38,130 bases of DNA from Bacteroidales bacterium (GTDB lineage: Bacteria > Bacteroidota > Bacteroidia > Bacteroidales > GCA-2748055), in contig JAOZQY010000012.1 of NCBI GenBank assembly GCA_029931975.1, forward strand, positions 1 through 38,130. Direction: 5' to 3'. The position numbers and the translations under genes were made by a program. The notes below the pieces were generated by a model, which worked only from the letters and a program-made list of their open reading frames with translations, was not told where the DNA came from and searched no databases. Of the stretch, positions 3 to 21,712 are shown in pieces. Position 1 is the stretch's first letter. Each line of letters begins with the position of its first letter.

Positions 3-284
3 TTGAAGGAGGATGTTGCCCAGGGCACCTACTCCAATCTGGCCATCATTACCCACTCATCGTCCGAATTTGTGTTGGACTTTGTCAGGGTGATGCCAGG
101 CGTGCCCAAAGCCGAGGTGAAGTCGAGGGTGATTCTGACTCCTGAGCATGCCAAGCGTCTGCTGAAGGCACTTCAGGACAATGTGGAAAAGTTTGAAAAG
201 GCCCACGGGCCCGTAAAGAACATAGAACCAGCCGGCGGACCAATTGTACCGATGAATTTCGGCGGACCCGCAGGCGAGGCTTAA
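3..284 (+). CDS. DUF3467 family protein, 5' end cut by window
   Basis: This is the C-terminal part of a small cytosolic protein of the DUF3467 family, whose function is not established. The visible sequence carries the family hallmarks YSNLAIITHSSSEFVLDF, then MPGVPKAEVKSRVILTPEHAKRLL, and ends in a Gly/Pro-rich tail. Family members usually have about 10-20 residues before the KEDVAQGTYSN stretch, so the TTG at position 3 is probably an internal Leu codon and the true start lies upstream of the window. Its stop codon (282-284) overlaps the stop codon of the convergent DUF1858 gene in the palindrome TTAA, so there is no room for a separate terminator. Confidence 0.85.
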   Translation: MKEDVAQGTYSNLAIITHSSSEFVLDFVRVMPGVPKAEVKSRVILTPEHAKRLLKALQDNVEKFEKAHGPVKNIEPAGGPIVPMNFGGPAGEA

Positions 285-544
285 TCCATCTGTAATAACT
301 CAGTGACAAAAGTATTGATTTCTTCATCGCTGAAACCTTTTTTCTTCGCAGCTTCTTCCAGTGTGCCCCATATGGGTTCCCCACAGGCAATGCACATTAT
401 TCCCCTGTCAGCCAGGTACCTCACAGAGCCCGGAATCTGATGAACCATGTCTTCTATATAGATGTCTTTAGTAATTTTCATGGGTTGCATGTTCAGTCGA
501 TAAATGAAAACACCGGGCTTGACTCCAATTGCAGCGGGGATCAT
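281..544 (-). CDS. DUF1858 domain protein
   Basis: An 87-residue protein whose last 66 residues (from MKITKDIYIEDMV) form a DUF1858 domain, also found next to hybrid-cluster proteins and in redox enzymes of anaerobes. A Cys pair is visible in MCIACGEPIWGTLEE. The function is not established. The first ATG (544) overlaps the stop of the upstream gene in ATGA, which favours translational coupling. An internal ATG at 481 would give only the domain, and the first 21 residues are not typical of the family, so the start is uncertain. It is the last gene of the long minus-strand run that begins near 14010, and may be a small redox accessory of the membrane complex encoded there. Confidence 0.8.
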   Translation of the reverse strand: MIPAAIGVKPGVFIYRLNMQPMKITKDIYIEDMVHQIPGSVRYLADRGIMCIACGEPIWGTLEEAAKKKGFSDEEINTFVTELLQMD

Positions 545-837
545 CGATCTTTGATACGGGATTCAATCTCCTTGATATGATCCACCAGGAAAGAAGAACT
601 ACTTCCCGAGATGGCCCTGATCCATGATTTTAGCCGGAGGTTCTGTTCATATACCTTCTGACAACTGCGCTCCTCTTCTTCGTCGGTGATTGTTTTGTTC
701 TGGTCATACACGGATTTTAGTTTCTCCAGCAAACGATTCTTCTCCCTGCACCAATCCGAGTTGCGATCCTCGCAACCACACTTTGCATCATCAATCCACT
801 GGAATAATCCCTCCGGAATATAAACTCTGTGTTTCAT
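541..837 (-). CDS. Small uncharacterised Cys-containing helical protein
   Basis: I do not recognise a family for this 98-residue protein. It is rich in charged residues and looks helical. It has a CGC at residues 20-22, a Cys at 30 and another Cys near the middle (SCQKVYEQ). There is no signal peptide or membrane segment. It starts 5 bases after the stop of the upstream gene (842-1555) and overlaps the downstream DUF1858 gene by 4 bases, so it is co-transcribed and probably translationally coupled. The position suggests a partner of its neighbours; no activity can be assigned from sequence. Confidence 0.6.
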   Translation of the reverse strand: MKHRVYIPEGLFQWIDDAKCGCEDRNSDWCREKNRLLEKLKSVYDQNKTITDEEEERSCQKVYEQNLRLKSWIRAISGSSSSFLVDHIKEIESRIKDR

Positions 838-841
838 TCGC

Positions 842-1555
842 TTAGAATTTTTTACTAATCTCTTCTTTCAGTTCGTGAAATTTGCTTTTCTCACAATGCT
901 TAGAGTAGATCCCTATGAAATGCACTACCTCCTCTTTAATAAAATGATAACTAAAAAAGGAGTCAAAGAGATTGAAGTCACAGCTTAACTTGATCTGCTC
1001 CATTCCTTTAGTAAATTTATCGAACTCTATCCAGTGCGGAGCTTTAAAAAAATACCTGTTTTCATTGTTGGCATCCTGGAACACCCCCTCCTCCAGTTCT
1101 TCAAATTCAATGTATTTTTTGTACACCACATGTGCCTTATCATCTGCTGTTTTTTTGTCTCCAAGGAATTTGATTCCATTGGATTCAAGTTCTGCAATTA
1201 GCAGGGGTAACTCTTTTAGATCCTTCATATTGATCCGGATGCACTGATATAGATTTTTATGAAATCTGATCTGACCGGGAAACACTTTAATAGTAAGGTT
1301 TTGTTTTCGTCTCAGGTGATCCGCCTGTCGGAGCACAAGGTCCTGAAAACAGATAACCTGCGCCTTTACCAACAGATAGAGGTGCCGCCTGTCCGTACTA
1401 TGTTTTTCATTAGGGGGAAAGTTATTCCTGGCATAATAATCAGGAGAAGAGGATGATTCGAGTACCAGTCGACCATGCGACTCACTCAAGGGTGAACGTG
1501 ATACATTTGCATCAAATTCAAAGCAGGTAAATCCTTCGATTTTGTTTTTTTTCAT
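842..1555 (-). CDS. Uncharacterised protein, distant paralogue of the protein at 13273-14010
   Basis: A 237-residue soluble protein with no family that I recognise. By eye it aligns along most of its length with the first protein of the same minus-strand run (13273-14010). Shared landmarks in the same order are an SSxxPxYY segment near residues 36-41, a Tyr-rich strand followed by KAQ/QAP, a P-x-x-IR motif near residue 93, a 53-residue stretch that aligns without gaps (about 10 identities) ending in K-F/L-L, and a C-terminal aromatic segment (NLFDSFFSYHF against KNFDAAIGYWF). It starts 17 bases after the DHODH-like gene, behind an A-rich tract. The two paralogues bracket the whole complex operon. 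Candidate roles are assembly factor or regulatory subunit; this is inference. Confidence 0.65.
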   Translation of the reverse strand: MKKNKIEGFTCFEFDANVSRSPLSESHGRLVLESSSSPDYYARNNFPPNEKHSTDRRHLYLLVKAQVICFQDLVLRQADHLRRKQNLTIKVFPGQIRFHKNLYQCIRINMKDLKELPLLIAELESNGIKFLGDKKTADDKAHVVYKKYIEFEELEEGVFQDANNENRYFFKAPHWIEFDKFTKGMEQIKLSCDFNLFDSFFSYHFIKEEVVHFIGIYSKHCEKSKFHELKEEISKKF

Positions 1556-1572
1556 GATGCTTTTTTTTTCGT

Positions 1573-2556
1573 TTAATAACCGGCGTCTGAAAAGTACTTC
1601 ATGAACTGGGTGCGTTCAAAGAGTACAGGCTGTTTGATATTGTGCTGACTGGCATGTCCCCGGAAGTCGGCAATAGACTTGTATTCGTGTCTTTTCATCC
1701 AGTCCTTCAGGGTGTCCAGCATCTCCTCGATGACCTTTGGACCACTTTTGTATACAGCAGAAACTACCTGGACCGCCTGAGCACCCACCAGCAGGTTTTT
1801 AATGACGGTCTCTCCATTATAAATCCCCCTGGATGCTGCCATATCCATACGGATCTTTTCATATAGGATGCCAATCCATCTGATAGTCATCACGTTAAGC
1901 TCTTTGCAGCTATAGATGTCCCCGGGAATAATCTTTTCGCGTTCGATGTCCACATCGGGACTATAGAACCTGTTAAACAATACTACAGCCGATGCTTTGG
2001 TCTGCGAAAGCTTATAAACAAAGTTAGCCAGCCCCGAGAAGTAGTAACTGATCTTTAAGGCAAAAGGGATGGTGATGGCCTGACTGATCTGTTGGATGAT
2101 GTCAAAGTATATCTGCTCCTTTTGTTCTCCGTTCTGGTCAACTTCGGCGGGTAGCAGGAAGAGGTTAATCTCAAGCGCATCGGCTCCTGCCTCTTCAATC
2201 AATTTGGCATAATCGGTCCATCCTTCGGCGGAGACACAGTTAATGCTGGCAATCACCGGGATGTTGAGTGCAGTCTTGTTCTCTTTGATGAGCCTGACAT
2301 ACTTGGTCAGGTTGTGTTTCTTGGAGTAGTACATGGCATAATACTCCTGTTCGGAATAGGAGCCGTACATGTTGTTTAGTCGTTGCTCGTCTACATCATG
2401 CAGAATCTGTTCTTCGAAAAGGGATTTAAGCACGATGGCTCCTGCACCGGCTTTTTCATAAGCAATGGAGTTTTCAATGTGTTCTGTTAGTCCCGAACTC
2501 CCTATAATAATGGGGCTCTTTAACTGCAATCCCATGTAGCTGGTAGAGATGTCCAT
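1573..2556 (-). CDS. Dihydroorotate dehydrogenase-like FMN TIM-barrel protein
   Basis: A 327-residue protein of the DHODH fold. The first strand region is SPIIIGSSGLTEH, then AGAGAIVLKS (K44), AGADALEINL (N131), the FMN-type lysine in PFALKIS (K168) and a C-terminal phosphate-binding stretch NLLVGAQAVQVVSAV. The substrate-loop motif of true DHODH and dihydropyrimidine dehydrogenase (N-x-S-C-P-N/H) is replaced by NLFLLPAEVDQN, so it is unlikely to be pyrimidine PyrD and the substrate is unknown. The ATG at 2556 is chosen because it lies 4 bases after the stop of the NuoI-GltD fusion; the longer reading would overlap that gene and adds residues foreign to the family. The neighbouring Fe-S/FAD protein is the obvious electron partner. 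Confidence 0.8.
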   Translation of the reverse strand: MDISTSYMGLQLKSPIIIGSSGLTEHIENSIAYEKAGAGAIVLKSLFEEQILHDVDEQRLNNMYGSYSEQEYYAMYYSKKHNLTKYVRLIKENKTALNIPVIASINCVSAEGWTDYAKLIEEAGADALEINLFLLPAEVDQNGEQKEQIYFDIIQQISQAITIPFALKISYYFSGLANFVYKLSQTKASAVVLFNRFYSPDVDIEREKIIPGDIYSCKELNVMTIRWIGILYEKIRMDMAASRGIYNGETVIKNLLVGAQAVQVVSAVYKSGPKVIEEMLDTLKDWMKRHEYKSIADFRGHASQHNIKQPVLFERTQFMKYFSDAGY

Positions 2557-2560
2557 GATC

Positions 2561-4378
2561 TTATGTTTTTGGTGTGTCTTTCTGTTTTTCAAAAAGGAAC
2601 TCATCAATTCCCTTGGCAGCCTTGTGTCCATTGGCAATGCCGTGGATCACATCGGGACCCTGGATAATATCACCGCCCAGGAACAACCAGGGAAGGCCGC
2701 TCTGGAAATTCTCATTGACCTTGATCCGTCCGCGCTTGTCAATTTCCAGCTCATGTTTCAGATCCTCGGAAAGATAGGAGAGATCCATTCCCTGTCCGAT
2801 GGATTCCACCACCATGCTTCCTTCAAAGAACTGCAGGTTATCCATGTTGCACTGGGGATTGAATTTGCCTTCATCATCGAAAAGGGAATAGCACTGGGCC
2901 ACATGCAGCCCTTTGATTTTATCATTTTCAATCTCTATACGTTGGGGTGCCCAGCCCGGATTAACTGTTGCATCCTCCTCCCTTGCCTCAAGCACTTCTT
3001 CGCGGTCAGCAGGCATTTTATCTTCTGTCTCAAGGCTGGTGGCGATGATTCCTGCTTTGCCATACTTCTGCTTTTGCAGGCGGGCCAGCGAACGGGTGAT
3101 GTCCATGGCCACATTGCCGCCTCCGATCACGATTATATCTTCGGTCAGGGGAACTTCTTTGCCCAGTGTGATATCGCGGAGCAGGTCGATGGATTGGTAA
3201 ACGTTTTTGTGATCTGATCCTTCTATCCGGGTGCTACGTCCAAGGTGCAGTCCTGTTCCTGAAAATACTGCATCATGCTTCTCACCAAGCTCTTCAAGGG
3301 TGATATCCACACCCACAGTGGTATTGTATTTGATATCCACACCCAGGGATTCAATATAGCTGATGTCCTTGTCGATCTGGTCGTATGGAAGCCGGTATTC
3401 AGGGATCCCGAATCGCATCATACCTCCCGCTTTGGCCAGTTTTTCAAAAATGGTACACGTATATCCCATCAGGGCCAGATAGTGTGCGGCTGATAATCCG
3501 CTGGGACCGGAACCGATGATTGCGATCTTCTTCCCATTTTTCTTCAAAAATCCAGAATTTAGAATTTTCTTGTATTTTTCAGAAGGGTTCTGGTCGGCTA
3601 TGTACCTTTTCAGCCAGCGGATGGAGAGTGCTTCCCCCCTTTGTCCCAGGGTACAAACGGTTTCACATTTATGGGTACAGATCCGTCCGCATATCTCAGG
3701 CAGCGGGTTGGTATCATATAAAATACGCAGTCCCTCTTCCAGATCATCGTTACGAATGGCTTTGATGTATTCAGGGATGCCCATGTGGGCCGGGCAGGTT
3801 GCGGTACATATACCGCATTCCACACAACGGTCTGCCTCTTTTTCGGCCTGCTCTTTTGAATATCCCTTCACCATCTCCACGAAGGAATCGCTTCGCTCTT
3901 CAGGATGAAGGTGTTCCATCGTTACCCGATTCAGGTTGTAGAACTCGTAATTGGGCTCCGGTTTCTTCCAGCCCTTCTCTTCGTTATCCCAGGGCTTCTC
4001 ATCCACTCCAGGAGTATACCTGTACTTCTCAGGGTCTTCTTCTACCCAGGTGTATGCATTGGTAAGGCTCAGCGAGCCGGTGGTGCAGATATCCACGCAG
4101 AGTCCACACCAGCAGCAACGGCCATAGTCCACCCGTGGCCTTAATCCACTATCCCCGTCTTTGGTCTCCACACCCTCCACCGGAACCATGTCAATGGCTT
4201 CATTTTCGCAGATGGTTTCGCAGGTGCCACATCCAATACAAGAAGTGATATCGTTCTTATGAAAACCCCTGTACCTGTCAGCCCCCGGCCTTTCACTGAT
4301 GGGGTCCTTTATGGTAACCGGCTTTTCGAAAACCTTTCTCCAGGCTGAAAAGGGTGAGAATGTATCTTTCAGGCTCAT
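2561..4378 (-). CDS. NuoI-like ferredoxin fused to GltD-like NAD(P)H/FAD oxidoreductase
   Basis: A 605-residue electron-transfer protein. Residues 40-100 hold two [4Fe-4S] motifs of the NuoI/ferredoxin type (C47, C50, C53, C57 and C88, C91, C94, C98). Residues 180-245 form the Fe-S domain of glutamate synthase small subunits (C185, C188, C191, C195, then C230, C234, C238, C242). FAD binding follows (IAIIGSGPSGLSAAHY, 285-300) and then the NAD(P) site (IIVIGGGNVAMDI, 415-427). There is no glutamate synthase large subunit nearby. The position after NuoD makes it the peripheral arm of the membrane complex, probably linking NAD(P)H to the complex. A related GltD-like gene accompanies the Thermotoga Mbx-type cluster, from memory. 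The start is the ATG 20 bases after the NuoD stop. Confidence 0.88.
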   Translation of the reverse strand: MSLKDTFSPFSAWRKVFEKPVTIKDPISERPGADRYRGFHKNDITSCIGCGTCETICENEAIDMVPVEGVETKDGDSGLRPRVDYGRCCWCGLCVDICTTGSLSLTNAYTWVEEDPEKYRYTPGVDEKPWDNEEKGWKKPEPNYEFYNLNRVTMEHLHPEERSDSFVEMVKGYSKEQAEKEADRCVECGICTATCPAHMGIPEYIKAIRNDDLEEGLRILYDTNPLPEICGRICTHKCETVCTLGQRGEALSIRWLKRYIADQNPSEKYKKILNSGFLKKNGKKIAIIGSGPSGLSAAHYLALMGYTCTIFEKLAKAGGMMRFGIPEYRLPYDQIDKDISYIESLGVDIKYNTTVGVDITLEELGEKHDAVFSGTGLHLGRSTRIEGSDHKNVYQSIDLLRDITLGKEVPLTEDIIVIGGGNVAMDITRSLARLQKQKYGKAGIIATSLETEDKMPADREEVLEAREEDATVNPGWAPQRIEIENDKIKGLHVAQCYSLFDDEGKFNPQCNMDNLQFFEGSMVVESIGQGMDLSYLSEDLKHELEIDKRGRIKVNENFQSGLPWLFLGGDIIQGPDVIHGIANGHKAAKGIDEFLFEKQKDTPKT

Positions 4379-4398
4379 TGTCTGTACTGTTTCTAAAG

Positions 4399-5589
4399 TT
4401 ATCGTTCAATTTCAGGTGGGCATGTTGCCAGGGAAACCATGATGGAGGAAACATCGGAGATGTTGGCATTGATCAAAAGTTTCTCCAGGAGAGTCACTGC
4501 ATGGGCATAGCTTGGTCCACGCAAATTGATCCTTCTAGGGTACATGGAACCATCGGCCACCAGGTAAAAAATGTATTCACCCCTGCTTGATTCACATCGT
4601 ACCAGGGTTTCTCCCCTGGGTATCTTCCAGTGAAGCACATTGGGCGTTTCTGCTTTGATATCTCCTTTATCCGGCATCTTGCTCATAATCTGCCGGAGTA
4701 GATCAATGGTGGTATCCACATCTTTTCTCCGGACCAGGAACCTGGCAAATACATCAGATTCATGTTCCACATTGACACCGAAGTCCAGTTGATCATAATA
4801 GAGGTAGGGATAGTCCTTTCGTACATCCCTTTCATAGCCTGCAGCACGTGCAACCGGTCCGGTTACACCATAGGGATCGATCCAGTCGGCAGGGATTATT
4901 CCGATTCCTTTGGTTCGTTTTTTAAATACAGTATTTGCATAGATCACCCGGTCCACATCCTTCATGAAGGATTCAATTTTGACCAGGTTCTCCTCCAGTC
5001 GCTTCTTAAATCCGGCGGGCAGCAATCCCCTTACCCCGCCTGGCAGGATGTACATATGGTATATTCTGCCTCCTGTCAGCTCCTCAAACCTGTCCAGGAT
5101 CAGTTCGCGGTAGTACAGTCCCCACTGGGACGGTAGTCCAAGTCCCATGGTGCCAGCCTGGCCCGGCACCATCCTCAGCAGGACCTGGAGGCGTGCCATC
5201 TCCAGGGCTATCATTCTTAACCAGTTGGCCATTTCGGGGACCTCAATTCCTCCCAGGAGCTCTGTTCCCCGTGCCAGGTTGTATTCATTGGTATCCGGTT
5301 CGGGAACACACATGCGAATGCAAGTGGGGAAGCATTGTATATAACGTCGTCGTTCGAACAGTTTTTCAAAGCCACGGTGGAGGTAACCTACATGTGTTTT
5401 GGCTTCAACCACTTCATCTCCGCTTACAGTGAGTTCCAGCGACATATTTCCGGTTACACCAGGATGATTGGGTCCCTGCCATACTTTGATGTATTTTTGT
5501 GAATCCAGGTCCACTACCAGTTTACCCGTTTCATCGGCTTCAGGAAACAGGCTCCTGTTATTCTTCCAGCTATAATTTGTATTACTCAT
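4399..5589 (-). CDS. NuoD/hydrogenase large-subunit-like protein (Mbx/Mbs type)
   Basis: A 396-residue homologue of complex I NuoD and group 4 NiFe hydrogenase large subunits. The N-terminal hallmark HPGVTGNMSLEL and HVGYLHRGFEKLFE (near residues 42-77) are clear. The NiFe-binding CxxC motifs are not intact. At the N-terminal site there are three Cys (C86, C90, C94) and C94 is followed by VPE97. At the extreme C-terminus the expected DPCxSC is ATC390PPE393. It is therefore not a NiFe hydrogenase, and it lacks evident quinone-site proof. It overlaps the NuoC gene by 8 bases. It should sit on the membrane arm with NuoB and NuoH. Confidence 0.88.
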   Translation of the reverse strand: MSNTNYSWKNNRSLFPEADETGKLVVDLDSQKYIKVWQGPNHPGVTGNMSLELTVSGDEVVEAKTHVGYLHRGFEKLFERRRYIQCFPTCIRMCVPEPDTNEYNLARGTELLGGIEVPEMANWLRMIALEMARLQVLLRMVPGQAGTMGLGLPSQWGLYYRELILDRFEELTGGRIYHMYILPGGVRGLLPAGFKKRLEENLVKIESFMKDVDRVIYANTVFKKRTKGIGIIPADWIDPYGVTGPVARAAGYERDVRKDYPYLYYDQLDFGVNVEHESDVFARFLVRRKDVDTTIDLLRQIMSKMPDKGDIKAETPNVLHWKIPRGETLVRCESSRGEYIFYLVADGSMYPRRINLRGPSYAHAVTLLEKLLINANISDVSSIMVSLATCPPEIER

Positions 5590-6109
5590 CCGGATAAAGC
5601 TTTTGTTTCATGTATTCGGCGGGATCGTTGGTCTCTCTGCCCGGTCTTGGGAAATAGGTATCCTCTGAATACTGCTTTGTGTCGAAATCTCTGCGCATGG
5701 GGGGTAGATTATCCCATCCTTCCAGAAGGAAGGGTTCATCCACGCGTGGACTACCGGGAAAGTTGATACCAAACATCTCTTTGATTTCCCGTTGAAAAGT
5801 TGCAGCGTGTTCCCACAGGGAATGAATGGACTCCATCTCTGCATCTTCCCTTTTAATAAATACCCGAATTCCCAAATCCCTTTTTTCATCCGGGTTATTA
5901 ATGATGTAGGTAAGTTGGAATTTGCAATCCTCCAGCCAGTCCACAGCTGACAGTATTACCAGAATGCCGTACCCGTGGTTGGTTTTGAGGCTGGTGAGCA
6001 TGGGTACCAGCTTTGCAGCTTCCACTGACATAAGAATTACGCCATTCGGACCCTCGCCGATCTCATATACCGGGAATCTTTTTTTCAAATGATCTATTAT
6101 CTCTTTCAT
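5582..6109 (-). CDS. NuoC-like (30 kDa) subunit
   Basis: A 175-residue homologue of the NADH dehydrogenase 30-kDa subunit / MbhK. The signature is FQREIKEMFGINFPGSPRVDEPFLL, followed by WDNLPPMRRDFD. It is cytoplasmic and has a structural role between the NuoB- and NuoD-like subunits. The ATG at 6109 (MKEIIDHLKK) is chosen; a longer reading to 6223 would run into the NuoB gene and gives no family-like sequence. It begins 10 bases after the NuoB stop and ends overlapping the start of NuoD. Confidence 0.88.
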   Translation of the reverse strand: MKEIIDHLKKRFPVYEIGEGPNGVILMSVEAAKLVPMLTSLKTNHGYGILVILSAVDWLEDCKFQLTYIINNPDEKRDLGIRVFIKREDAEMESIHSLWEHAATFQREIKEMFGINFPGSPRVDEPFLLEGWDNLPPMRRDFDTKQYSEDTYFPRPGRETNDPAEYMKQKLYPDE

Positions 6110-6119
6110 TGTAAGTAAG

Positions 6120-6794
6120 TTACCAGTTATAGCTTGGCATATTCCAGTCCTTGATAATTTTTTTCTGGTTGGCCTTGTACCAATCCAGTTTTTCGGCATA
6201 GTCATTTGCCCCTTCTGCATCACCGTTCTTGATGCGTTCTTTCAGCTTGTTAAATCCTGAGAGAATGGATTCCGGACGAGGCATGTAACCGGCTATATAT
6301 ATATCTACAGGAAGATACTGGTCCAGCCTGTTGATGGTGTTGTAACTATCCCAATACATGCCTCCATTAATGGTACAACTTCCCAGGGCAATGACATATT
6401 TTGGGTTCTGCATCTGTTCATAGCTTCTGATGACCCGTTTCAGGGTTTTTACGGATAGATAGCCTGAGATGATCAGGACACCAGACTGACGTGGGGTAGG
6501 ACGCATCGCCACACCAAAGCGGTATGCATCAAAGCGCGGAGAGAAGAGTGGGGGTAATTCAATACTCCCGCATCCGGTCCCAAATGCAAGAACCCAGAGT
6601 GATTCGGCACGGGCCCAGTTCAGGAATTTCTCCAGGATCCCCTTGTAGGGTGCTTCCACCTTTGGCAAGTCCTGGCAAAAGTAATCATTCAAGGGGTCTA
6701 CATGGATCTCTTCTCCTTCCGGACCAATCACAGTGTGTTTCCTGTTCTCGGGAGCCAGGAATTTATCTTCTTGATTCTGTTGTTTATCTGACAT
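6120..6794 (-). CDS. NuoB-like subunit with incomplete N2-cluster ligands
   Basis: A 224-residue homologue of NuoB / MbhJ, the subunit that normally holds the cluster nearest the catalytic site. Visible motifs are GTGCGSIEL (C75), LGSCTINGGMYWDSYN (C140) and AGYMPRPESIL (Y170). In canonical NuoB these are ACCAxE, GxCxxxGG and GCPPRPE. The second Cys of the first motif is Gly and the last Cys is Tyr, so only two of the four N2 ligands remain. The only other Cys is C40 in an N-terminal extension of about 50 residues. Codons were checked on the minus strand: TGC for C75, TAC for Y170. It lies directly after the NuoH gene (1-base gap). Confidence 0.88.
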   Translation of the reverse strand: MSDKQQNQEDKFLAPENRKHTVIGPEGEEIHVDPLNDYFCQDLPKVEAPYKGILEKFLNWARAESLWVLAFGTGCGSIELPPLFSPRFDAYRFGVAMRPTPRQSGVLIISGYLSVKTLKRVIRSYEQMQNPKYVIALGSCTINGGMYWDSYNTINRLDQYLPVDIYIAGYMPRPESILSGFNKLKERIKNGDAEGANDYAEKLDWYKANQKKIIKDWNMPSYNW

Positions 6795-6795
6795 T

Positions 6796-7707
6796 TTATT
6801 TAATCATAAGTAATACAATGGCCAGTATTCCAGATACCAGTGGTATCTTTAGCAACCACGGAATGGATTGATCAACACGGAACCTGGGGAACACCATTCC
6901 CACAAAAACTGCCCAGAAATAGATCAGGAAGCTCTTCAGGATTAATACGCCCCAGTTGCCTGCACCTCCAAAGAAAAGGTTCATATAGAGCACTGCTTCT
7001 ACCACATGTAAAATCGCCCTGTTGGTTTGTAGTACCCCCAGGAAGGTGCCATGGTACTCGGTGGGAGGTCCAATGGGATTTTCCTGTGGAGCCATGACAA
7101 CATTGAAAGGGGAATGCCCCATGGCTCCTAAAAAGGATAGCATGGCCGCAATGGTTGCCAGTGGATTGGTAAACAGGGTCCAATGCATGATTCCACCCTG
7201 TTGAGCTGCAACGATCTCTGAGATGGACAGCGTTTTGTACTGAATAGCTAAAGCGATTATTGCCAGGGTGAAGGGGACCTCCACTGCTGTAAACTGTGCC
7301 AGTCCGCGTGCTACACCGATGCCAGAATAGGGATGCCCGCCTTCTCCTGCTCCAAGGGCCATTCCCAGCATTCCAAAGAACATGAAATAGGCTATTAGAA
7401 TCAGGTCGCCCGTGAATGAGAAATTGCTCCAGTATTCAGAGCCATAAATCAGCGGCATAAAGAGGAATATCCCGACGCCCCCCGATAACCTGAATACAGG
7501 TCCCAGGTAGAACATTACACCGTGTGTTAACTGCGAACGGAGGCTATAGTTTTTAATCAGGTTGATATAGGGCTGATAGACTTTTATTCCGCGTCGCATT
7601 CCCACCCTGGCGATTATTTTTCGAATTATCCCGGACATGATGAGTCCCCAGTTCAGCACTATGAACAGGCCGAGCAGTACGAATAATATTTTCAGAAATA
7701 TGTTCAT
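6796..7707 (-). CDS. NuoH/MbhM-like membrane subunit
   Basis: A 303-residue membrane protein of the respiratory-chain NADH dehydrogenase subunit 1 family (NuoH, MbhM, EchB). About eight hydrophobic segments are visible. Family marks are FTAVEVPFTLA, MGHSPFNVVMAPQENPIGPP, EYHG near the loop, and FPRFRVDQ near the C-terminus. It would anchor the NuoB/C/D module to the membrane and pass the conformational signal to the antiporter-like modules. It starts 2 bases after the stop of the large antiporter-like gene, so the two are surely co-transcribed. Confidence 0.9.
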   Translation of the reverse strand: MNIFLKILFVLLGLFIVLNWGLIMSGIIRKIIARVGMRRGIKVYQPYINLIKNYSLRSQLTHGVMFYLGPVFRLSGGVGIFLFMPLIYGSEYWSNFSFTGDLILIAYFMFFGMLGMALGAGEGGHPYSGIGVARGLAQFTAVEVPFTLAIIALAIQYKTLSISEIVAAQQGGIMHWTLFTNPLATIAAMLSFLGAMGHSPFNVVMAPQENPIGPPTEYHGTFLGVLQTNRAILHVVEAVLYMNLFFGGAGNWGVLILKSFLIYFWAVFVGMVFPRFRVDQSIPWLLKIPLVSGILAIVLLMIK

Positions 7708-7709
7708 AA

Positions 7710-10700
7710 TTAAAACATTAGCATGTAGACAATGAGGATATAGATCAAAATATGGATAATATAGGTCTGGCCGTTACCGGTATAAATCCTTCGTGTGGAG
7801 TCTGCTACCTGATGAGTTACTGAGTTGACCCCGTTCCAGAATCCGGTTGCTAGGGGTAATGATAAGAATCCCAGAGCCTTGTAATAGTGCGAAAACATGT
7901 TGTGTGAAAAGTGTGTGGTTTCAGGTTTAAAAGGCCTTTCTCCAGCATATACAATGTTAAATTGCTTGATTTTCTGTGCTTTTCGACTCATAAGCATTAG
8001 CCAGAGAAGCAAAATAACGAACATCACTCCAATCACCAGCATGATTTTATATCCACTCCAGTAACCCAGGTTGGTGGAAGCTGTTACATTTTCCCAGCTT
8101 AAGGGATCTGTGGGAAAGTAGTTGCTTTGTGCCAACATATTCCCCAGGGGTTTAAGAATAAGGTCGGGCCGGGCAGAAAAGATCATAATTCCAATGATCA
8201 AGACTGCCTGGGGAATAATGTACCAGATGGGAACCTCCTTCACCTTTCGAAATTTGTCTTTGGGCTGCCCCAGGAATATGGAGTAAATAAGTTTGAAACA
8301 ATAGAGAAATGCGATAGTTCCAGAGAAGAAAACCAGGGCACCCTGGAAGTACCATCCCTTTGTGATCACCGCATTATAGAAGAGCCATTTACCTGCGTAA
8401 CCTGCCAGTGGGGGGATTCCTGCCAGGGTGATGATTCCGATTAGTACTGCAATAAAACTCCATGGCATCTGCTTGATCAGGCCGCCCATTTCATACATTT
8501 TATGGGTTTTGACTCGCATAACCACGCCCCCGATGGCCAGGAAGAGCAGGGTTTTAAACAAAAAGTGGTTAATGGAATAGGTAAGCGCGGTGAGCCAGCC
8601 CACATTGGTCATAAAGGCCAGGGCAAATAGAATATAGCCCAGGTTTCCGACACTGGAATAGGCCAGCAGGCGTTTGGCATCCTCCTGAAATACAGCCAGT
8701 AAATTGCCCACAAGGGCGGTTAAAGCTCCCAGCCATCCCAGAACATAGAGCAGGGTATGTTGTTCTGACTGCTCCGCACCCATTAGCAGAAAAAGCAGGA
8801 TCAAACCAAACACACCGCCTTTTAGAAGAATGCCGGAAACCATTGGCGAGACATCCGACTCAGCTTCAGCATGTGCTCCGGGTAACCAGATATGTAGTCC
8901 CAGTGCAGCGGTTTTTGTCAGGAAACCAATGGCCAGCAGACTATAGCTCCAACCGGGCATAGTGCTGCTGGACAGGATATTGAGATCCATGGAATGGTGG
9001 CCGAAGTAGGAGAGGGCTATGCCGATAAAAATCAGGTAGGCCCCTCCCAGGGAGAACAACATGTAATTAAAGGCATGGATCAAACTTTTCTTTCCCCGGA
9101 GGATCAGTATATAGGATCCCAGGGTCATAAGCTCCCAGGAAAAGAAAAACTGGAAGAGATTCTCTGCTTCGATCAGACCCATCAGCCCCGCATACATCAT
9201 GACGGCAAAAGGGAAAAAACCTGCTCTTTTGCCCTTGATCGAATATCCGGCAAAAAGTGTCAGGATGCCACCAAGCATAAATATACCTGCAAATATCAGC
9301 CGGAGGCTGTCATCGGCAATAAGAGGATAGAGTCTTACTGAATAGATAACCATGGCTGTGATTACCAGGGAATTTTTGATCCATGCAGGCAGAAAATCGA
9401 GCAGGAATAACAGGATGATGAAATAGATAGGAATCAGGTTAAGGGAATGACCATATTCCGAAGCATTGTTCAGAAAATATGAAGCAATAACTGCAAAAAT
9501 GGTAAAGAGCACAGGGGGGAGGATCTTCTCCCATTTGATCACCAGGCTATTTTCTTTTTCTTCTTCTCCTTTCATAACCTTACCGAACCACCTGAAAAGA
9601 TAGAGCCCTTCAAAAAAGGATCCGGCCAGGATTGCCACGATTAAGATGAAAAACCGCTGCTGTGCAAGCTCCATGATAAGTTGCCACTTCCCATAAAATG
9701 ACGGGAATGGTGGGAAGCCTATCAGTGTCAGGATAAAAAATCCAAACATAAAAAGTAATAAGCTGTTTTTTCTGAGTACCGACCATTCCTTGATGTTCTG
9801 TTTCTGAACAATTCCAGATATCCAGAACAGGCCGGCTTTGGCAAGAAAGTGGCTGATAAAGATGGACAGGAAGATAAAATGAAAGTGTTCACCGAGTCTG
9901 GGTGCCAGACCCAGGATTGTCAGCATAAAACCAATCTGTCCGATCGAGGAGTACCCCAGCAAGCGGTTTCCGTTTTTTTGGGCTATTCCCAGAATATTGG
10001 ATCCCACAAATGTAATTAAGCCAATGGCTATCAGGTATGGAGTCCAGTCATTGCTACTTAATGGCAGCAGTTTATATAGTAAGTAGATGGAAGCAGTTGC
10101 TGTTCCAGATGAGATCATGGCGCTGATGCCTGGATGGGCAGCCTGATAAACATCAAGAGCCCAACCATTGGCAGGAAAAGGTTTTAGCTCCAGTATTATG
10201 GCTATCAGAATAAGAAAAATGGCCATTGAAATACCCTTTACCGCTGTAGGATTGCTTTGGAGATAGGTGTCAATATTCAAGGTGCCGCTGTGCAGGTAGA
10301 AAAAACCAATTCCTATCAGAAGAAACGAGGAGATTACTCCAACGGCTATTAAATACTTGAAACCAGCGGCAGAAGAGCGAAAATCCTTTTTCAGATAGAG
10401 GAGCCCTGCAGTGGCGATAGAAGCCACTTCCAAAAACACAAAGATGTTGAAGATATCCCTGGTCATGATCAATACATTCATGGCCATCATTAGTACAAGA
10501 AATATAACAGAGCCTTTGATTCCCTCCTCCCTGAAATCCCGGTACAGGTAGATGAATCCCAGCAGTCCAAGTACATTGATAACCATTGTGAAGAGTGATT
10601 CTTCCAAACCCATCTGCAGATTAATGGCGAATGGAGGCCTGGCACCACCTGTGAATATTTGCAGCACTTCCTGCTGGCCGGAGGTAAAATGAATAAACCA

Positions 10701-10838
10701 GCTCACCGAAACAAAGACGGCAAAGGCTAGGGCAAGAACTGAGAGTATGCCGGCCAGGCCTTTTTCCTTTTTTTGAAATAATCCAATCAAAAAAGCCGAG
10801 CCCAGCAGTATGGCGATTATATAGATAGGGTTTACCAT
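7710..10838 (-). CDS. Fused double antiporter-like subunit (MrpD/MbxH-H'-like plus MbhI-like tail)
   Basis: A 1042-residue membrane protein built of two NuoL/M/N (MrpD)-type modules, about 1-480 and 490-880, followed by a tail of about 110 residues (AGERPFKPETTHFSHN...) like MbhI or the end of NuoL. Module 2 has the usual ion-path residues: E569 (FFSWEL), K642 (FLTKTAALG), K673 (ILLKGG) and K762 (HFLFKTLL). Module 1 keeps E137 (FVFLEVAS), K219 (ILELKPFPANGW) and K334 (SHFLAKAGLF), but the TM8 lysine is replaced by S244 (MISSGTA). Archaeal Mbx/Mbs also have two such modules, so the fusion fits that class. It starts inside the last codons of MrpC (7-base overlap). Confidence 0.9.
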   Translation of the reverse strand: MVNPIYIIAILLGSAFLIGLFQKKEKGLAGILSVLALAFAVFVSVSWFIHFTSGQQEVLQIFTGGARPPFAINLQMGLEESLFTMVINVLGLLGFIYLYRDFREEGIKGSVIFLVLMMAMNVLIMTRDIFNIFVFLEVASIATAGLLYLKKDFRSSAAGFKYLIAVGVISSFLLIGIGFFYLHSGTLNIDTYLQSNPTAVKGISMAIFLILIAIILELKPFPANGWALDVYQAAHPGISAMISSGTATASIYLLYKLLPLSSNDWTPYLIAIGLITFVGSNILGIAQKNGNRLLGYSSIGQIGFMLTILGLAPRLGEHFHFIFLSIFISHFLAKAGLFWISGIVQKQNIKEWSVLRKNSLLLFMFGFFILTLIGFPPFPSFYGKWQLIMELAQQRFFILIVAILAGSFFEGLYLFRWFGKVMKGEEEKENSLVIKWEKILPPVLFTIFAVIASYFLNNASEYGHSLNLIPIYFIILLFLLDFLPAWIKNSLVITAMVIYSVRLYPLIADDSLRLIFAGIFMLGGILTLFAGYSIKGKRAGFFPFAVMMYAGLMGLIEAENLFQFFFSWELMTLGSYILILRGKKSLIHAFNYMLFSLGGAYLIFIGIALSYFGHHSMDLNILSSSTMPGWSYSLLAIGFLTKTAALGLHIWLPGAHAEAESDVSPMVSGILLKGGVFGLILLFLLMGAEQSEQHTLLYVLGWLGALTALVGNLLAVFQEDAKRLLAYSSVGNLGYILFALAFMTNVGWLTALTYSINHFLFKTLLFLAIGGVVMRVKTHKMYEMGGLIKQMPWSFIAVLIGIITLAGIPPLAGYAGKWLFYNAVITKGWYFQGALVFFSGTIAFLYCFKLIYSIFLGQPKDKFRKVKEVPIWYIIPQAVLIIGIMIFSARPDLILKPLGNMLAQSNYFPTDPLSWENVTASTNLGYWSGYKIMLVIGVMFVILLLWLMLMSRKAQKIKQFNIVYAGERPFKPETTHFSHNMFSHYYKALGFLSLPLATGFWNGVNSVTHQVADSTRRIYTGNGQTYIIHILIYILIVYMLMF

Positions 10839-11203
10839 TTCAATGATTTGTATTGATTGATTTCTAAGGATTTATTTTGTCTGTACAGTTTCAGTGCATA
10901 GGTGAGCATGAGCCCTGTGATGCCAATTCCAATGACTATTGCTGTGAGTACCAGCGCCTGGGGCAAGGGGTCTGTGATCTGATCTGCTGCCTTAAGCTTA
11001 TCAACCGAGGAATCGATGATAGGAGCTGTTCGGTTCCTGATAAATCCAATGGCCACCAGCAACAGGTGTATGCTGGTATCGATGATGCTGAAGCTGATGA
11101 TCATCTTAATGATGTTTTTCTGCGAAATGATTCCCCATAGGCCCACTATCAGTAGCAGAAAGCCGGCAATAACAGTAATATATTCTAATCCAAGATATTT
11201 CAT
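10832..11203 (-). CDS. mrpC: MrpC/MbhG-like (NuoK-like) subunit
   Basis: A 123-residue protein with three hydrophobic segments, of the NuoK/MrpC family. Visible marks are FLLIVGLWGIISQKNIIKMIISFSIID near the N-terminus and the PLPQALVLTAIVIGIG segment (DPLPQALVLTAIVIG is the MrpC signature). It is part of the cation-translocating Mrp half of the complex. It lies 11 bases after the fused MbhE/MrpB gene and overlaps the next gene by 7 bases. The start is the ATG at 11203; nothing downstream fits better. Confidence 0.92.
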   Translation of the reverse strand: MKYLGLEYITVIAGFLLLIVGLWGIISQKNIIKMIISFSIIDTSIHLLLVAIGFIRNRTAPIIDSSVDKLKAADQITDPLPQALVLTAIVIGIGITGLMLTYALKLYRQNKSLEINQYKSLKW

Positions 11204-11214
11204 TCGTTTAAGAT

Positions 11215-11919
11215 TTAATCTTCTTTGCCCTGTACCTGGTTAAGTTCAAGAATGATCGTTGATAATTCGGCCCCCACTTTTAGTCCGATTAGACTGTAAA
11301 TGATGGGGATGGCTCCTGCGCTCAGCAATGAGCCAAATGTACCGGTCCCGAGAATTTTATTATCCAGGAAGCCAGCTGCCAGGATGACCCCCAGGATGCC
11401 AATCAGCACAAAGGATAAGCCAGACAGGGCCTCTGTTAGTTCCAGCACTTTGTGGCCTATCTTATTCCGGGATATGGAGATCAGCAGCAAAATAAAGGTG
11501 GAAGCCAGTATGGCTCCTCCCTGGAAACCACCACCGGGGGTAAGATGGCCATTAACAAATATATAAACCCCTATCAAAGAGATCATTGGGATCAGAAGCT
11601 TTGCAGCAGTGATCATAAATTCGCTGGATGCTCTCATGGCTGTTTTCCTGGTACCATTCTCGGTTTTAAGCAGTAGGCCGATGATGGCGGAAACCAGAAA
11701 AAGGATGGTGACTTCCCCGAGGGTGTCCAGTCCCCTGTAGGTAACTACCACCGAGGTGACCAGGTTGGCAGCACCCGTTTCATCCGGCCCTTTTTCTGCA
11801 TAGTAACGGGCTGTATCGTTCAATGTATCCCGGCTGTCATAATCTTTATACAGGTTGAACAACATCCAGGTCATGAAACCTAAAAGGACTAGGAGGATAC
11901 TATTTTTCAGGATCTTCAT
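11215..11919 (-). CDS. Fused MbhE- and MrpB/MbhF-like subunit
   Basis: A 234-residue membrane protein. The N-terminal part (1-95) has the MbhE-like segment ETGAANLVTSVVVTYRGLDTLGE. The C-terminal part (about 100-220) is the MnhB/MrpB domain with VNGHLTPGGGFQGGAILAS. In Pyrococcus Mbh these are separate genes (mbhE and mbhF); here they are one polypeptide. The protein belongs to the sodium/proton antiporter half of the complex. Its start overlaps the end of the DUF4040 gene by 20 bases. Confidence 0.88.
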   Translation of the reverse strand: MKILKNSILLVLLGFMTWMLFNLYKDYDSRDTLNDTARYYAEKGPDETGAANLVTSVVVTYRGLDTLGEVTILFLVSAIIGLLLKTENGTRKTAMRASSEFMITAAKLLIPMISLIGVYIFVNGHLTPGGGFQGGAILASTFILLLISISRNKIGHKVLELTEALSGLSFVLIGILGVILAAGFLDNKILGTGTFGSLLSAGAIPIIYSLIGLKVGAELSTIILELNQVQGKED

Positions 11920-12151
11920 GGCGGATCTTATTTAGGACGTAAAAGAAAATAGCAACGGTCAGCACACTTCCAATGGAGGCTTCGGTAATGGCAACATCGG
12001 GTGCAGCAAGGAATAAATATACAACAGAGGCAAAAAGACTTATGATTCCGGAGGCAATAACCGCTACCTGCAGGTTTTTATGATAAATGGCAACGAATGC
12101 CATCAAAAGCATACCCACAGATATCAGGATAATGAGGATGGTTTGGATCAT
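11900..12151 (-). CDS. DUF4040 / MbhD-like subunit
   Basis: An 83-residue protein with three hydrophobic segments. The phrase LFLAAPDVAITEASIGSVLTV is the hallmark of the MbhD/DUF4040 family, equivalent to a C-terminal piece of MrpA. It is part of the Mrp module. It overlaps the preceding MrpG gene by 4 bases (ATGA) and the following gene by 20 bases. Confidence 0.88.
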   Translation of the reverse strand: MIQTILIILISVGMLLMAFVAIYHKNLQVAVIASGIISLFASVVYLFLAAPDVAITEASIGSVLTVAIFFYVLNKIRHEDPEK

Positions 12152-12504
12152 GATTCGTTTTCTTTAGTGACTGGATTTTCCTGACGATCTTGTTTTAAAT
12201 TATCGATATGTGTTTTAGCGGAAAGTGGAATACCGATAAAGTATGCTGCTCTACCCAGTACATGGGAGGAGACCGGATTTGAGATCAAAACAAAGAGGAT
12301 CAGGAGGATCAGTTTCAGCAACCAGTCGGGATGAATCAGTCCAATCCCCAGTAGGGTGAGTATTGATCCCAGAGTAGTGGCTTTTGTCCCTGCCTGGATT
12401 CGGTTATATATATCGGGCATCCTGAGCAGACCAATGGCCGCAAAGAGAATAAACAGGGATCCGATCAGGGTGAGTACTGCACCGCATATTTTTATAAATT
12501 CCAT
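12148..12504 (-). CDS. mrpG: MrpG/MbhC-like subunit
   Basis: A 118-residue MnhG/MrpG family protein. Typical marks are LIGSLFILFAAIGLLRMPDIYNRIQAGTKATTLGS and, further on, SSHVLGRAAYFIG. It has three membrane segments and a short charged C-terminus. It is needed for the Mrp-type antiporter assembly in characterised systems. It starts 1 base after the MrpF stop. Confidence 0.92.
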   Translation of the reverse strand: MEFIKICGAVLTLIGSLFILFAAIGLLRMPDIYNRIQAGTKATTLGSILTLLGIGLIHPDWLLKLILLILFVLISNPVSSHVLGRAAYFIGIPLSAKTHIDNLKQDRQENPVTKENES

Positions 12505-12505
12505 G

Positions 12506-12766
12506 TTATAAGCTTTTTTCTAGATATTTGGCAACGATGATCACTCCTATGAAGCTCAGAATAGCGTAAACGATCGAAACATCTATGTAGATCTTTCTGT
12601 CCAGAAAATGAGCAAGAAGTACGATCAGTCCTATGGTGCTAATTGTTAGAGCGTCCAGTGCTACAACTCTGTCTGCCACACTTTTACCTATTAGGAATCG
12701 AACAATGACCAGCAGGAAGGATAGCCCGATGATCAATAATGCAATTGAAAGAATAGTATTAACCAT
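12506..12766 (-). CDS. mrpF: MrpF/MbhB-like subunit
   Basis: An 86-residue MnhF/MrpF family protein with three membrane segments. The signature is FLIGKSVADRVVALDALTISTIGLIVLLA (residues about 25-53). It overlaps the MrpE gene by 8 bases and is followed after 1 base by MrpG, the same E-F-G order as in Mrp antiporter and archaeal Mbh operons. Confidence 0.92.
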   Translation of the reverse strand: MVNTILSIALLIIGLSFLLVIVRFLIGKSVADRVVALDALTISTIGLIVLLAHFLDRKIYIDVSIVYAILSFIGVIIVAKYLEKSL

Positions 12767-13268
12767 AAATTACCTCCAGATATTTTTCAAATTTCCTGAT
12801 GATCTGTTGCCCATATTGTTCGGGATCCTCTGAATCCACATATACGCAGTGTATATAAAGAGTGTCATCGATAATATCGATGGTAAAGGTGCCCGGAGTA
12901 AGTGTGATGGAGTTGGCCAGGATCAGCCTGGCCATTTTCGACTGCAGGGTGGTGGTGGCCCTGATGATTCCCGGTTTAATGGGAAGAGAGGGACTTAAGA
13001 CTCTCCATGCAATATCAAAATTTGCTTTTATCAGCTCCTTTATAAAGGTGAACAGGAACAGCAGGGTGAAGAGGAAGGCCTTCGGGCTTAGTCTCAACTC
13101 ATCAAAGACTGTACAATGCCGGCACATAAGCATTGAAATGGCAAGAGCAATCAGAGCTCCTGAAACAAGGTACTCTGTTGCAGTTGATTGATTCAGTATG
13201 AGCCAGGCCGCAAACAGAATAATGAAAATGATACTAATTTCTTTTAACTTCATTGTTTTTAGGTTCAT
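12759..13268 (-). CDS. mrpE: MrpE/MbhA-like subunit
   Basis: A 169-residue MnhE/MrpE family protein. The N-terminus has two hydrophobic segments (residues about 8-50). The middle carries the family marks LFTFIKELIKANFDIAWRVLSP, then GIIRATTTLQSKMARLILANSITLTPGT. It is the first clearly recognisable subunit of the Mrp-linked complex. Two close starts are possible, ATG at 13268 (MNLKTMKLKE) or ATG at 13253 (MKLKEIS); neither has a clear Shine-Dalgarno sequence. It follows the uncharacterised upstream gene by 4 bases. Confidence 0.9.
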   Translation of the reverse strand: MNLKTMKLKEISIIFIILFAAWLILNQSTATEYLVSGALIALAISMLMCRHCTVFDELRLSPKAFLFTLLFLFTFIKELIKANFDIAWRVLSPSLPIKPGIIRATTTLQSKMARLILANSITLTPGTFTIDIIDDTLYIHCVYVDSEDPEQYGQQIIRKFEKYLEVIYG

Positions 13269-13272
13269 AGGT

Positions 13273-14010
13273 TTACACCAGGATGTCCTGTTGCTTATAC
13301 CGTTTCAGGTTTACCAGAAACTCTTTGTGGATTTTCCTCAGTTGTTCCACCTCCAGTCCTTTCCCATTAATTCTCAGGAAATCCTGAAAGGAGGGTTTAT
13401 CAAACCAATAACCGATGGCAGCATCGAAGTTTTTGAATTTGCTGTTTAATTTCTGATAGGTAATTAGTTTTTCAAATATACTCCAGTCCACATGATCCTG
13501 TATCATAAGGTAATAGAGTCCATTGGAGCTGGTGTTTTTGTAGATGGCAGGCTCAATTTGACGAATATCAAAAAATGCATTCAGTTGTATTTGAGCCAGA
13601 AAACTATTTGTAATGTTACCCTTAAGGAGCTTGAATTTGTGATCTGAAAGTGAGTCCAGTACATCCGATAATTGTCCGGGTTCAATCTCTTTGACACGGA
13701 ATGACCGTCTGTATTCCCCTTGCATACGAATCAGGGAAGGACAGATATTCACCGAGAGCTTTGATTGAAGCTCCAGGCTGATCCTGCAAAGGTTTTCTTC
13801 CATCAGTTGGTCAGGAGCCTGAATAGGAATATAGTAGGAGAACTCCTTGCAACTATTGTCTGCTGGCTCATTTTCGTTACAGTAATATCCTGGGAAGGGA
13901 TCGCTTGAATAGAGTAATTGAAATTTCGTACTGAATGGCAGAGGAGCCGCTGAAAGGGTCTCCCTTTTCATTATAGAGCCAAATTTGAGCGTCGATTGTC
14001 TGGAATTCAT
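13273..14010 (-). CDS. Uncharacterised protein heading the complex operon, paralogue of 842-1555
   Basis: A 245-residue soluble protein of no family known to me, and the first gene of the long minus-strand run. It aligns by eye with the protein at 842-1555 over most of its length: SSDPFPGYY near residue 36, Tyr-rich FSYYIPIQAP near 57-66, CPSLIR near 90-95, and KNFDAAIGYWF near 193-203. The ATG at 14010 (MNSRQSTLKF) is preferred over an in-frame TTG at 14022. It has no signal peptide. It ends 4 bases before mrpE. Its role is unknown; regulation or assembly of the membrane complex is a guess from position. Confidence 0.65.
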   Translation of the reverse strand: MNSRQSTLKFGSIMKRETLSAAPLPFSTKFQLLYSSDPFPGYYCNENEPADNSCKEFSYYIPIQAPDQLMEENLCRISLELQSKLSVNICPSLIRMQGEYRRSFRVKEIEPGQLSDVLDSLSDHKFKLLKGNITNSFLAQIQLNAFFDIRQIEPAIYKNTSSNGLYYLMIQDHVDWSIFEKLITYQKLNSKFKNFDAAIGYWFDKPSFQDFLRINGKGLEVEQLRKIHKEFLVNLKRYKQQDILV

Positions 14011-14071
14011 TAGTTTTGCCAATCAGGTGGTAAATATATTTCCTTATGTTTTTGTTTAATCATTGATAACA

Positions 14072-14107
14072 TTGAGATATCCGCACATTAATATTGAGAT
14101 ATCTCAC
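14072..14107. promoter_or_regulatory. Two FNR-like operator candidates between divergent genes
   Basis: The sequence TTGAGATATC occurs twice, at 14072-14081 and 14094-14103, 22 bases apart (about two helix turns). The second copy extends to TTGAG-ATAT-CTCAC (14094-14107) and contains the perfect 12-bp palindrome TGAGATATCTCA. The 5-4-5 layout is that of an FNR box (TTGAT-N4-ATCAA), with G for T at the fifth base. The sites lie between the FNR-type regulator (start 14122) and the complex operon (start 14010), so control of both is plausible. Site function is inferred, not shown. Confidence 0.5.
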
Positions 14108-14121
14108 ATTTTATAATTTCT

Positions 14122-15299: not shown

Positions 15300-15320
15300 T
15301 TTTTATCGGTTTTTGCAATG

Positions 15321-15358
15321 CAAATATACATACTAAAACAATGTGAATTTCAAATATA
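15321..15358 (-). promoter_or_regulatory. Candidate promoter region of the OsmC gene
   Basis: CAAATATA occurs at 15321-15328 and again at 15351-15358, exactly 30 bases apart. On the minus strand each reads TATATTTG, a perfect match to the Bacteroidetes -7 consensus TAnnTTTG. The proximal copy ends 22 bases upstream of the OsmC start. A TTTG lies 22 bases upstream of the proximal copy, three more than the usual spacing to a -33 box, so the match is partial. Confidence 0.4.
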
Positions 15359-16346: not shown

Positions 16347-16348
16347 GC

Positions 16349-21704: not shown

Positions 21705-21712
21705 TAAATATT

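Follow-up and report, generated by a model that had tools for sequence, protein, structure and literature searches.

The window, a 38,130-nt stretch of contig JAOZQY010000012.1 (assembly GCA_029931975.1) from a Bacteroidales bacterium, carries an operon whose core is assigned here to the MBX/MBS family and whose NuoI subunit is fused to a GltD-type flavoprotein. The window lies on contig 364 of a 4.76-Mb draft genome in 366 contigs (96.21% complete, 3.1% contamination), and its nearest named relatives are Bacteroidales metagenome-assembled genomes. Seventeen minus-strand open reading frames (ORFs) span positions 14022 to 281 without a real break (the next ATG, at 14010, is an alternative first start), with spacings of -104 to +20 nt between the called ORFs; the 17 minus-strand genes with overlaps or very short gaps claimed in a preliminary description of this DNA were thus recovered. 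The two long overlaps are over-long start calls, as read from the sequence (probable starts of NuoC and of the dihydroorotate dehydrogenase (DHODH)-like gene in Table 1), and the stop-to-stop frames of NuoC in near relatives comprised 177–181 aa (L113 and L117) and 219 aa (L112). Pfam and NCBIfam matches were obtained for MrpE, MrpF, MrpG, MbhD (DUF4040), a fused MbhE/MnhB, MrpC and a double Proton_antipo_M protein, as well as for NuoH, NuoB, NuoC, NuoD, a NuoI-Fer4_20-Pyr_redox fusion and a DHODH-like protein.

Six peptide patterns found 95 relatives, of which 80 loci were kept according to the similarity of their NuoD to that of the window, a choice that says nothing on the frequency of MBX without the arm. 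By the labels in their records, these loci belonged to Bacteroidota (34), Spirochaetota (23), Chlorobiota (5), Cloacimonadota (4), Ignavibacteriota (4), Fidelibacterota (2), Pseudomonadota (2), and Delongiibacteriota, Caldisericota and Acidobacteriota (1 each), and 3 had no phylum; L054 is a Sphaerochaeta genome assembled from a metagenome. All 12 core genes were present in 56 of the 80 loci and were collinear and on one strand in every one of the 56; the other 24 had no match for at least one core gene, mostly because the locus ends. NuoI-GltD followed NuoD in all 79 loci with more than 200 nt of downstream sequence. This shared order, for which the preliminary description had proposed a search of other genomes, places the operon far beyond chance. 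The antiporter pair was fused in 43 loci and split in 20, and the flanking genes (249 aa, 237 aa, 98 aa and DUF1858-like) were restricted to the nearest relatives or to the window among the fetched loci, many of which are cut short there. The operon was patchy among its own kin, with full-length orthologues of the fusion (at least 45% identity) in 5 of 41 genomes (own, genus, family and order, the own genome included) and a fragment in another (G017). Across the phylum, 4 of 296 genomes gave a match at E ≤ 1e-100, and the whole fusion was matched only in the own genome and one other. One operon lay in a record labelled Celeribacter (Roseobacteraceae; L042), an unexpected host that may reflect transfer or a mislabelled assembly.

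Comparison with structures in the PDB assigned the core subunits to MBS. NuoD matched chain 6u8y_L best (294.6 bits), followed by Thermus Nqo4 (183.4) and MbhL (111.1); NuoB matched 6u8y_J (215.9 bits), the next chain being cyanobacterial NdhK (134.1); and the NuoI part ranked MbsN (88.4 bits) before complex I (44.2). The C half of the double antiporter protein also had its best match in a 6u8y chain, and 6u8y_H was the top-ranked chain with its best stretch in the N half. The code 6u8y appears in the paper on the MBS structure (PMC7684303). The operon order, MrpE-F-G-DUF4040-E/B-C-D/D-NuoH-B-C-D-I, is that of Pyrococcus furiosus PF1453 to PF1441 as listed in Table 4 of PMC2678158, and every one of the 13 subunits of Pyrococcus MBS, earlier called MBX, has its counterpart among the products of twelve window genes. 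Both complexes have two antiporter subunits, fused here, and a single E subunit; in MBS, MbsE contributes transmembrane helices 1–2 to the proximal and 3–6 to the distal module (PMC7684303). A quick tree of NuoD placed 82 rows, MbsL among them, in one group (Shimodaira–Hasegawa-like approximate likelihood ratio test, SH-aLRT, 99) apart from three complex I and three hydrogenase-like rows, with long branches flagged. The Mbx/Mbs assignment of the preliminary description, for which it had suggested such a tree, was thus supported by structure ranking, gene order and phylogeny alike.

The residues around the reaction site agreed with this assignment. The position of Nqo4 H38 was Thr and that of Y87 was Val in the window, in 80 of 80 loci and in MbsL; none of the six locus-finding patterns spans these sites. 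In both NiFe motifs, the second cysteine position was Glu in 81 of 81 rows, and the two NiFe cysteines retained by MBS were present in 61 (C85) and 43 (C385) of the 80 loci. In the NuoB alignment (78 loci plus the window, 79 rows; MbsJ numbering), position C25 was Gly in all 77 rows that cover the loop, and the ligand positions were Cys in 77 of 77 (C28), 78 of 78 (C93) and 78 of 79 rows (C123). In MBS, the proximal cluster has three Cys ligands, and evidence makes it the site of sulfane reduction (PMC7684303). The sole exception at C123 is the window itself, which has a Tyr codon (TAC, 6285–6287) where its three nearest relatives have Cys; this may reflect a genuine lesion, variation between strains or an error in sequencing.

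The subunit set and order of MBS, a NuoD without the quinone His and Tyr and a NuoB without the fourth cluster cysteine together place the core in MBX/MBS rather than in complex I or MBH. Ordinary complex I was rejected on account of the absence of the quinone residues from all 80 loci and of the grouping of NuoD with MbsL, and MBH or a group 4 NiFe hydrogenase on account of the CVPE and CPPE that the window NuoD has instead of two CxxC motifs. It is accordingly very improbable that a quinone- or proton-reducing complex is present in disguise: Pfam labels the subunits as NADH dehydrogenase, but the quinone His/Tyr pair and the second cysteine of either NiFe motif are missing throughout, the gene order is that of mbx and not mbh, and NuoD keeps to the MbsL group. 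Complex I (Thermus Nqo, Escherichia coli Nuo) shares a homologous core and the general layout in which a wire fed by an NADH arm leads to a chamber, but it uses NuoEFG rather than GltD, retains the quinone His and Tyr and has four cysteines at N2; no NuoEFG module was found among the 17 operon ORFs in the Pfam and NCBIfam scans. The MBH of P. furiosus shares the Mrp-type membrane arm and NuoB/C/D/H/I-like subunits, but has a NiFe site with four cysteines, a NuoH gene after NuoD and one antiporter subunit; two E genes are listed for mbh in PMC2678158, against one E subunit in MBS and in the window operon. P. furiosus MBS likewise lacks the quinone residues and has the three-cysteine NuoB cluster seen in the relatives of the window. 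The system studied here differs from it in the Gly that replaces the spare Cys C25 of NuoB, in its bacterial, mostly uncultured hosts and in a NuoI extended by a GltD-type FAD/NAD(P) arm. Bacterial MBX as such was known already: a 2005 report, cited in PMC2246101, described the transfer of a twelve-gene mbx operon from Thermococcales to Thermotoga. The departure from known MBX/MBS is the NuoI-GltD fusion; the core itself is of known type.

The fusion protein comprises 605 aa, with NuoI at residues ~1–150 and a GltD-type FAD/NAD(P) flavoprotein behind it, which bears out the earlier statement that the peripheral arm is different. Of the announced NAD(P)H and FMN modules, the NAD(P) arm stood, whereas the module fused to NuoI is of the FAD (GltD) type and FMN is expected only in the DHODH-like protein. 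Across 71 loci and the window (72 rows; 9 of the 80 loci were dropped as partial or absent), 17 cysteines were invariant, a number sufficient for two clusters each in NuoI and in the N-terminus of GltD. Because the score against NCBIfam PRK13984 (NF010590) was 885.8 bits (888.7 in a second scan), under the cut-off of 946, the fusion is a close relative of this equivalog and not a member. Among 14 control genomes, Thermotoga maritima alone had a PRK13984 match at E ≤ 1e-100 (above the cut-off), and the other 13 had none. By sequence, the arm comes closest to the large subunits of Nfn and to GltD portions of bigger Fe-S flavoenzymes. It shares with these flavoproteins the Fer4_20 and FAD/NAD(P) fold and all eight N-terminal cysteines (aligned with 4ylf_B), but it is fused to NuoI in a membrane complex and has no NfnS; an NfnS-like gene was not found among the 17 operon ORFs in the same scans. 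In a structure model of the fusion, confidence was low in the NuoI part (block means 29–45, residues 1–150).

The second strand of the NAD(P) fold read YRR in 51 of the 72 rows and xLE in the other 21, the window included, with a short insertion before it in the rows shown; the reference rows 4ylf_B and 9bov_A have YRR. Since YRR binds the 2'-phosphate of NADPH, we infer that YRR marks an NADP type and LE an NAD type. With the motif columns removed, the LE rows formed a single clade (100), and one change of motif suffices on that tree. Thermotoga maritima has a bacterial MBS homologue (MBX, 12 or 13 genes in print) and holds the NuoI-GltD family above the cut-off; there, the fusion gene presumably adjoins the other mbx genes. 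This organism differs in being a thermophile, and its MBX has been proposed to reduce sulfur with ferredoxin (PMC9431562). No paper describing the GltD arm of a bacterial MBX was found in searches of the open-access literature.

Two loci likely, though not provably, record exchanges of the arm between operons. In a Chlorobiota record (L030), NuoH-B-C-D grouped with the clade of the window (100), and the GltD protein grouped with a YRR clade of Ignavibacteriota, Chlorobiota and other Bacteroidota (99). Forcing its arm together with all 21 LE rows was rejected (approximately unbiased (AU) test, p = 0.00038), as was forcing its four core genes into the other clade (four-gene concatenation, p = 0.00124). 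In a Marinimicrobia record (L057), the arm was of the LE type and its placement with Cloacimonadota was rejected (p = 1.5e-41), while H-B-C-D grouped with Cloacimonas (97) and forcing it into the LE group gave p = 0.00939 (four-gene concatenation). NuoD alone settled neither exchange (AU p = 0.09 for L030 and 0.516 for L057), and the tested groups were named after viewing the trees, which makes the p-values optimistic. A first test of the L030 arm (p = 1.4e-62) was discarded, as the 12 rows held together were no clade even without L030 (p = 0.0018). Both records offer likely natural arm swaps for comparison.

The most likely reading, to which we give about even odds, is that the GltD-armed MBS core takes electrons from NAD(P)H, from ferredoxin or from both, delivers them to sulfane sulfur at the cluster of NuoB and pumps ions in the process. 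In this scheme, the GltD arm would be the entry (or exit) of NAD(P)H at the far end of a single wire, running from its FAD through the NuoI clusters to the NuoB cluster, and the NuoI surface might admit ferredoxin. The NuoB cluster would reduce sulfane sulfur, polysulfide or a similar S-S compound, and this reduction would power both antiporter-type pumps along with the Mrp Na+/H+ part. The arm would be of the NAD(H) type in the clade of the window and of the NADP(H) type in the others, and would serve the MBS core in the way that NuoEFG serves complex I. As the acceptor, an S-S substrate seems most plausible because the chamber is of the MBS type and coupling in characterised relatives takes place at the NuoB/NuoD chamber. 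Later work on the MBX of P. furiosus demonstrated polysulfide reduction at its NuoB-type cluster (PMC7684303), and mbxA of T. maritima was up 4.36-fold with elemental sulfur (S0; PMC9431562). This S0 response of T. maritima MBX is the best experimental lead.

Several observations weigh against sulfane reduction by such a complex. In MBS mutants, MbsL C85 and C385 were dispensable for activity (PMC7684303), so that the presence or absence of these cysteines in NuoD is uninformative on function. The Tyr at a cluster-ligand position of NuoB may mean that the window copy is impaired or that the base is wrong, and the branches between reference groups in the NuoD trees are long. Standard potentials allow ferredoxin or NADPH to drive a pump against polysulfide, and NADH hardly; as NADH to polysulfide yields little energy, NADH on its own would scarcely power several pumps, a task that would call for ferredoxin, NADPH or a better acceptor. 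The LE clade would thus also use ferredoxin, have a better acceptor or run near equilibrium. The open-access literature yielded no report of an activity, donor or acceptor for any GltD-armed complex. In addition, no sulfur-metabolism gene was recognised, mostly by eye, among 16 flank clusters seen in at least 4 loci, several of which resemble antisense or shadow frames.

The preliminary description had favoured coupling of ferredoxin or another low-potential donor to NAD(P), that is, an ion-pumping ferredoxin:NAD(P)+ oxidoreductase in which ferredoxin would enter at NuoI and electrons would leave through the GltD FAD. The FAD and NAD(P) sites joined to NuoI suit such a reaction, and it was an early proposal for P. 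furiosus MBX (PMC2678158, PMC6349859). The idea is possible, but we judge it rather unlikely, and less likely than sulfane reduction, given the conserved MBS-like site residues: electrons would probably bypass the NuoB/NuoD chamber, where characterised relatives couple, and the site would be left without a role. The genome also encodes RnfC (PF13375), so a ferredoxin:NAD+ pump may already exist, and the P. furiosus proposal itself gave way to polysulfide reduction (PMC7684303). NqrA was not found over the cut-off in the genome, and four other PF01512 proteins were NuoF/HydB-like by eye. Two NuoD-type proteins were found in the genome, that of the window and a hydrogenase-like fragment on contig 125 (L118, 4193–5656); the latter matched formate hydrogenlyase subunit 5 (HycE) best in the PDB, lacks the N-terminal CxxC and perhaps belongs to an Ehr-like (hydrogenase-related) complex.

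A flavin-based bifurcating or confurcating pump was also considered, in which GltD would play the part of the NfnL flavin and bring together ferredoxin (through NuoI), NAD(P)H and an acceptor of higher potential; in some lineages, the DHODH-like flavoprotein would be its partner. The kinship of the arm with Nfn large subunits agrees with this, as does the DHODH-like gene that 24 of the 80 loci carry on the strand of the core and no more than 165 nt away from it (19 at the 3' end and 5 at the 5' end). An NfnS-like second subunit is absent from the 17 operon ORFs, however, and bifurcation is unreadable from sequence. Moreover, the DNA fetched for Spirochaetota and Cloacimonadota loci contained no DHODH-like match, so the protein is unlikely to be essential, and the pump as a whole appears improbable. 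In a 25th locus (L096), the DHODH-like gene lay 2.5 kb downstream, and all 25 records are labelled Bacteroidota, Chlorobiota or Ignavibacteriota. The stretch that we take to be the class 1 DHODH motif, NxSCPN, read like NMFILP in 24 of 24 copies (the window and 23 loci; two short ones were dropped), which makes pyrimidine oxidation by this protein unlikely. In L096 (10653–13104), a separate GltD-like gene stands beside, and ahead of, the DHODH-like gene downstream of the operon, an arrangement that recalls the PreT/PreA pairing of such proteins.

Returning to sulfane reduction, a broader picture can be drawn, which we put forward tentatively and hold to be somewhat less than probable: an MBS core that acquired a GltD-family arm in place of NuoEFG, an arm that moved between operons and in one clade switched its cofactor from NADP(H) to NAD(H), may be an independent counterpart of complex I, acting in bacteria as an NAD(H)-linked, ion-pumping sulfane-sulfur oxidoreductase. 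If true, nicotinamide arms would have been added to complex-I-like machines on two or more occasions, from flavoprotein families unrelated to one another, and a cryptic energy-conserving sulfur or NAD(P)H metabolism would be spread over ten phylum labels among the 80 loci. The question raised is whether NADH, NADPH or ferredoxin is the donor of a GltD-armed MBS, and which substrate is reduced.

Table 1. Features of the operon and of its upstream regulator region, in window coordinates.
Feature	Position	Strand	Basis or remark
249-aa protein, no known family, first operon gene	13273..14022	-	Paralogue of 237-aa gene
MrpE / MbsA	12759..13268	-	PF01899, E 5.5e-39
MrpF / MbsB	12506..12766	-	PF04066, E 5e-19
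MrpG / MbsC	12148..12504	-	PF03334, E 4.9e-27
DUF4040 / MbsD	11900..12151	-	PF13244 MbhD, E 7.6e-19
Fused MbhE/MnhB / MbsE	11215..11919	-	PF20501 and PF04039
MrpC / MbsG	10832..11203	-	PF00420, E 2.9e-22
Fused double antiporter subunit (N half MbsH, C half MbsH')	7710..10838	-	PDB 6u8y_H on residues 7-274, 6u8y_X on 469-1038
NuoH / MbsM membrane anchor	6796..7707	-	PF00146, E 2.6e-40
NuoB / MbsJ, predicted carrier of proximal 4Fe-4S cluster	6120..6794	-	6u8y_J, 215.9 bits; three-cysteine site in relatives
NuoB codon 170, TAC (Tyr), at MbsJ C123 position	6285..6287	-	Cys in 78/79 aligned rows
NuoC / MbsK	5582..6223 (start probably near 6109)	-	PF00329, E 7.4e-25
NuoD / MbsL	4399..5589	-	6u8y_L, 294.6 bits; without quinone His/Tyr and full NiFe cysteine set
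NuoI (MbsN) fused to GltD-type FAD/NAD(P)H module	2561..4378	-	PF14691, PF07992, Fer4; NF010590, 885.8 bits
DHODH-like flavoprotein (PRK07565 type)	1573..2637 (start probably near 2556)	-	NF005741, 397.8 bits (cut-off 303)
237-aa protein, paralogue of 249-aa gene	842..1555	-	Same place in L024
98-aa protein	541..837	-	No convincing family; homologue only in L024 among fetched loci
DUF1858-like small protein with CxxC (CIAC)	281..544	-	TIGR03980, E 3.2e-7, below cut-off
CRP/FNR-family regulator, divergent, N-terminal cysteines	14122..14820	+	PF13545, PF00027
Shared intergenic region, palindrome TGAGATATCTCA (candidate operator)	14023..14121		Exact in window, L023, L025, L027

The 249-aa and 237-aa proteins, encoded at opposite ends of the operon, are paralogues (20.7% identity, E 2e-11) that match no known family. 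No Pfam or NCBIfam match was found for the former (one scan used the 237-residue form starting at 13986), and its AlphaFold2 model (predicted local distance difference test, pLDDT, 83.7) had no PDB match at E ≤ 0.001. Homologues of the 249-aa protein occupy the same place in L023, L025, L026, L027 and L059. A CRP/FNR-type gene lay divergently upstream in the window and in 13 of the 80 loci; the 5' flank exceeds 1.5 kb in 48 of the 80. Of the 14 rows with such a gene, the window, L023, L025 and L027 share the spacer palindrome TGAGATATCTCA exactly, and L026 and L059 have near versions; in the more distant L037, L038 and L066, AACATATGTT palindromes were seen by eye in the spacer instead. A scan for FNR boxes found 6 against 6.6 expected, promoter and terminator scans were near chance (29 found against 32.2, and 19 against 16.9), and there was no Rfam match and no tRNA.

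Just upstream, on the same strand, positions 14865–16717 carry genes that resemble OsmC and thioredoxin reductase, each scoring under its NCBIfam cut-off, and a small gene that matched no family; together they perhaps share a thiol or peroxide theme. A plus-strand group at 17800–23497 comprises EtfB, EtfA, a 4Fe-4S/heterodisulfide-reductase-like membrane protein and an acyl-CoA dehydrogenase (the last by eye), and looks like a route from electron-transfer flavoprotein to quinone. Among the relatives, a rubrerythrin- or ferritin-like gene followed the 3' end of the operon in 12 loci, 11 of them from Spirochaetota (L058, L064, L067–L069, L071–L076 and L078; family checked in 2 of the 12).

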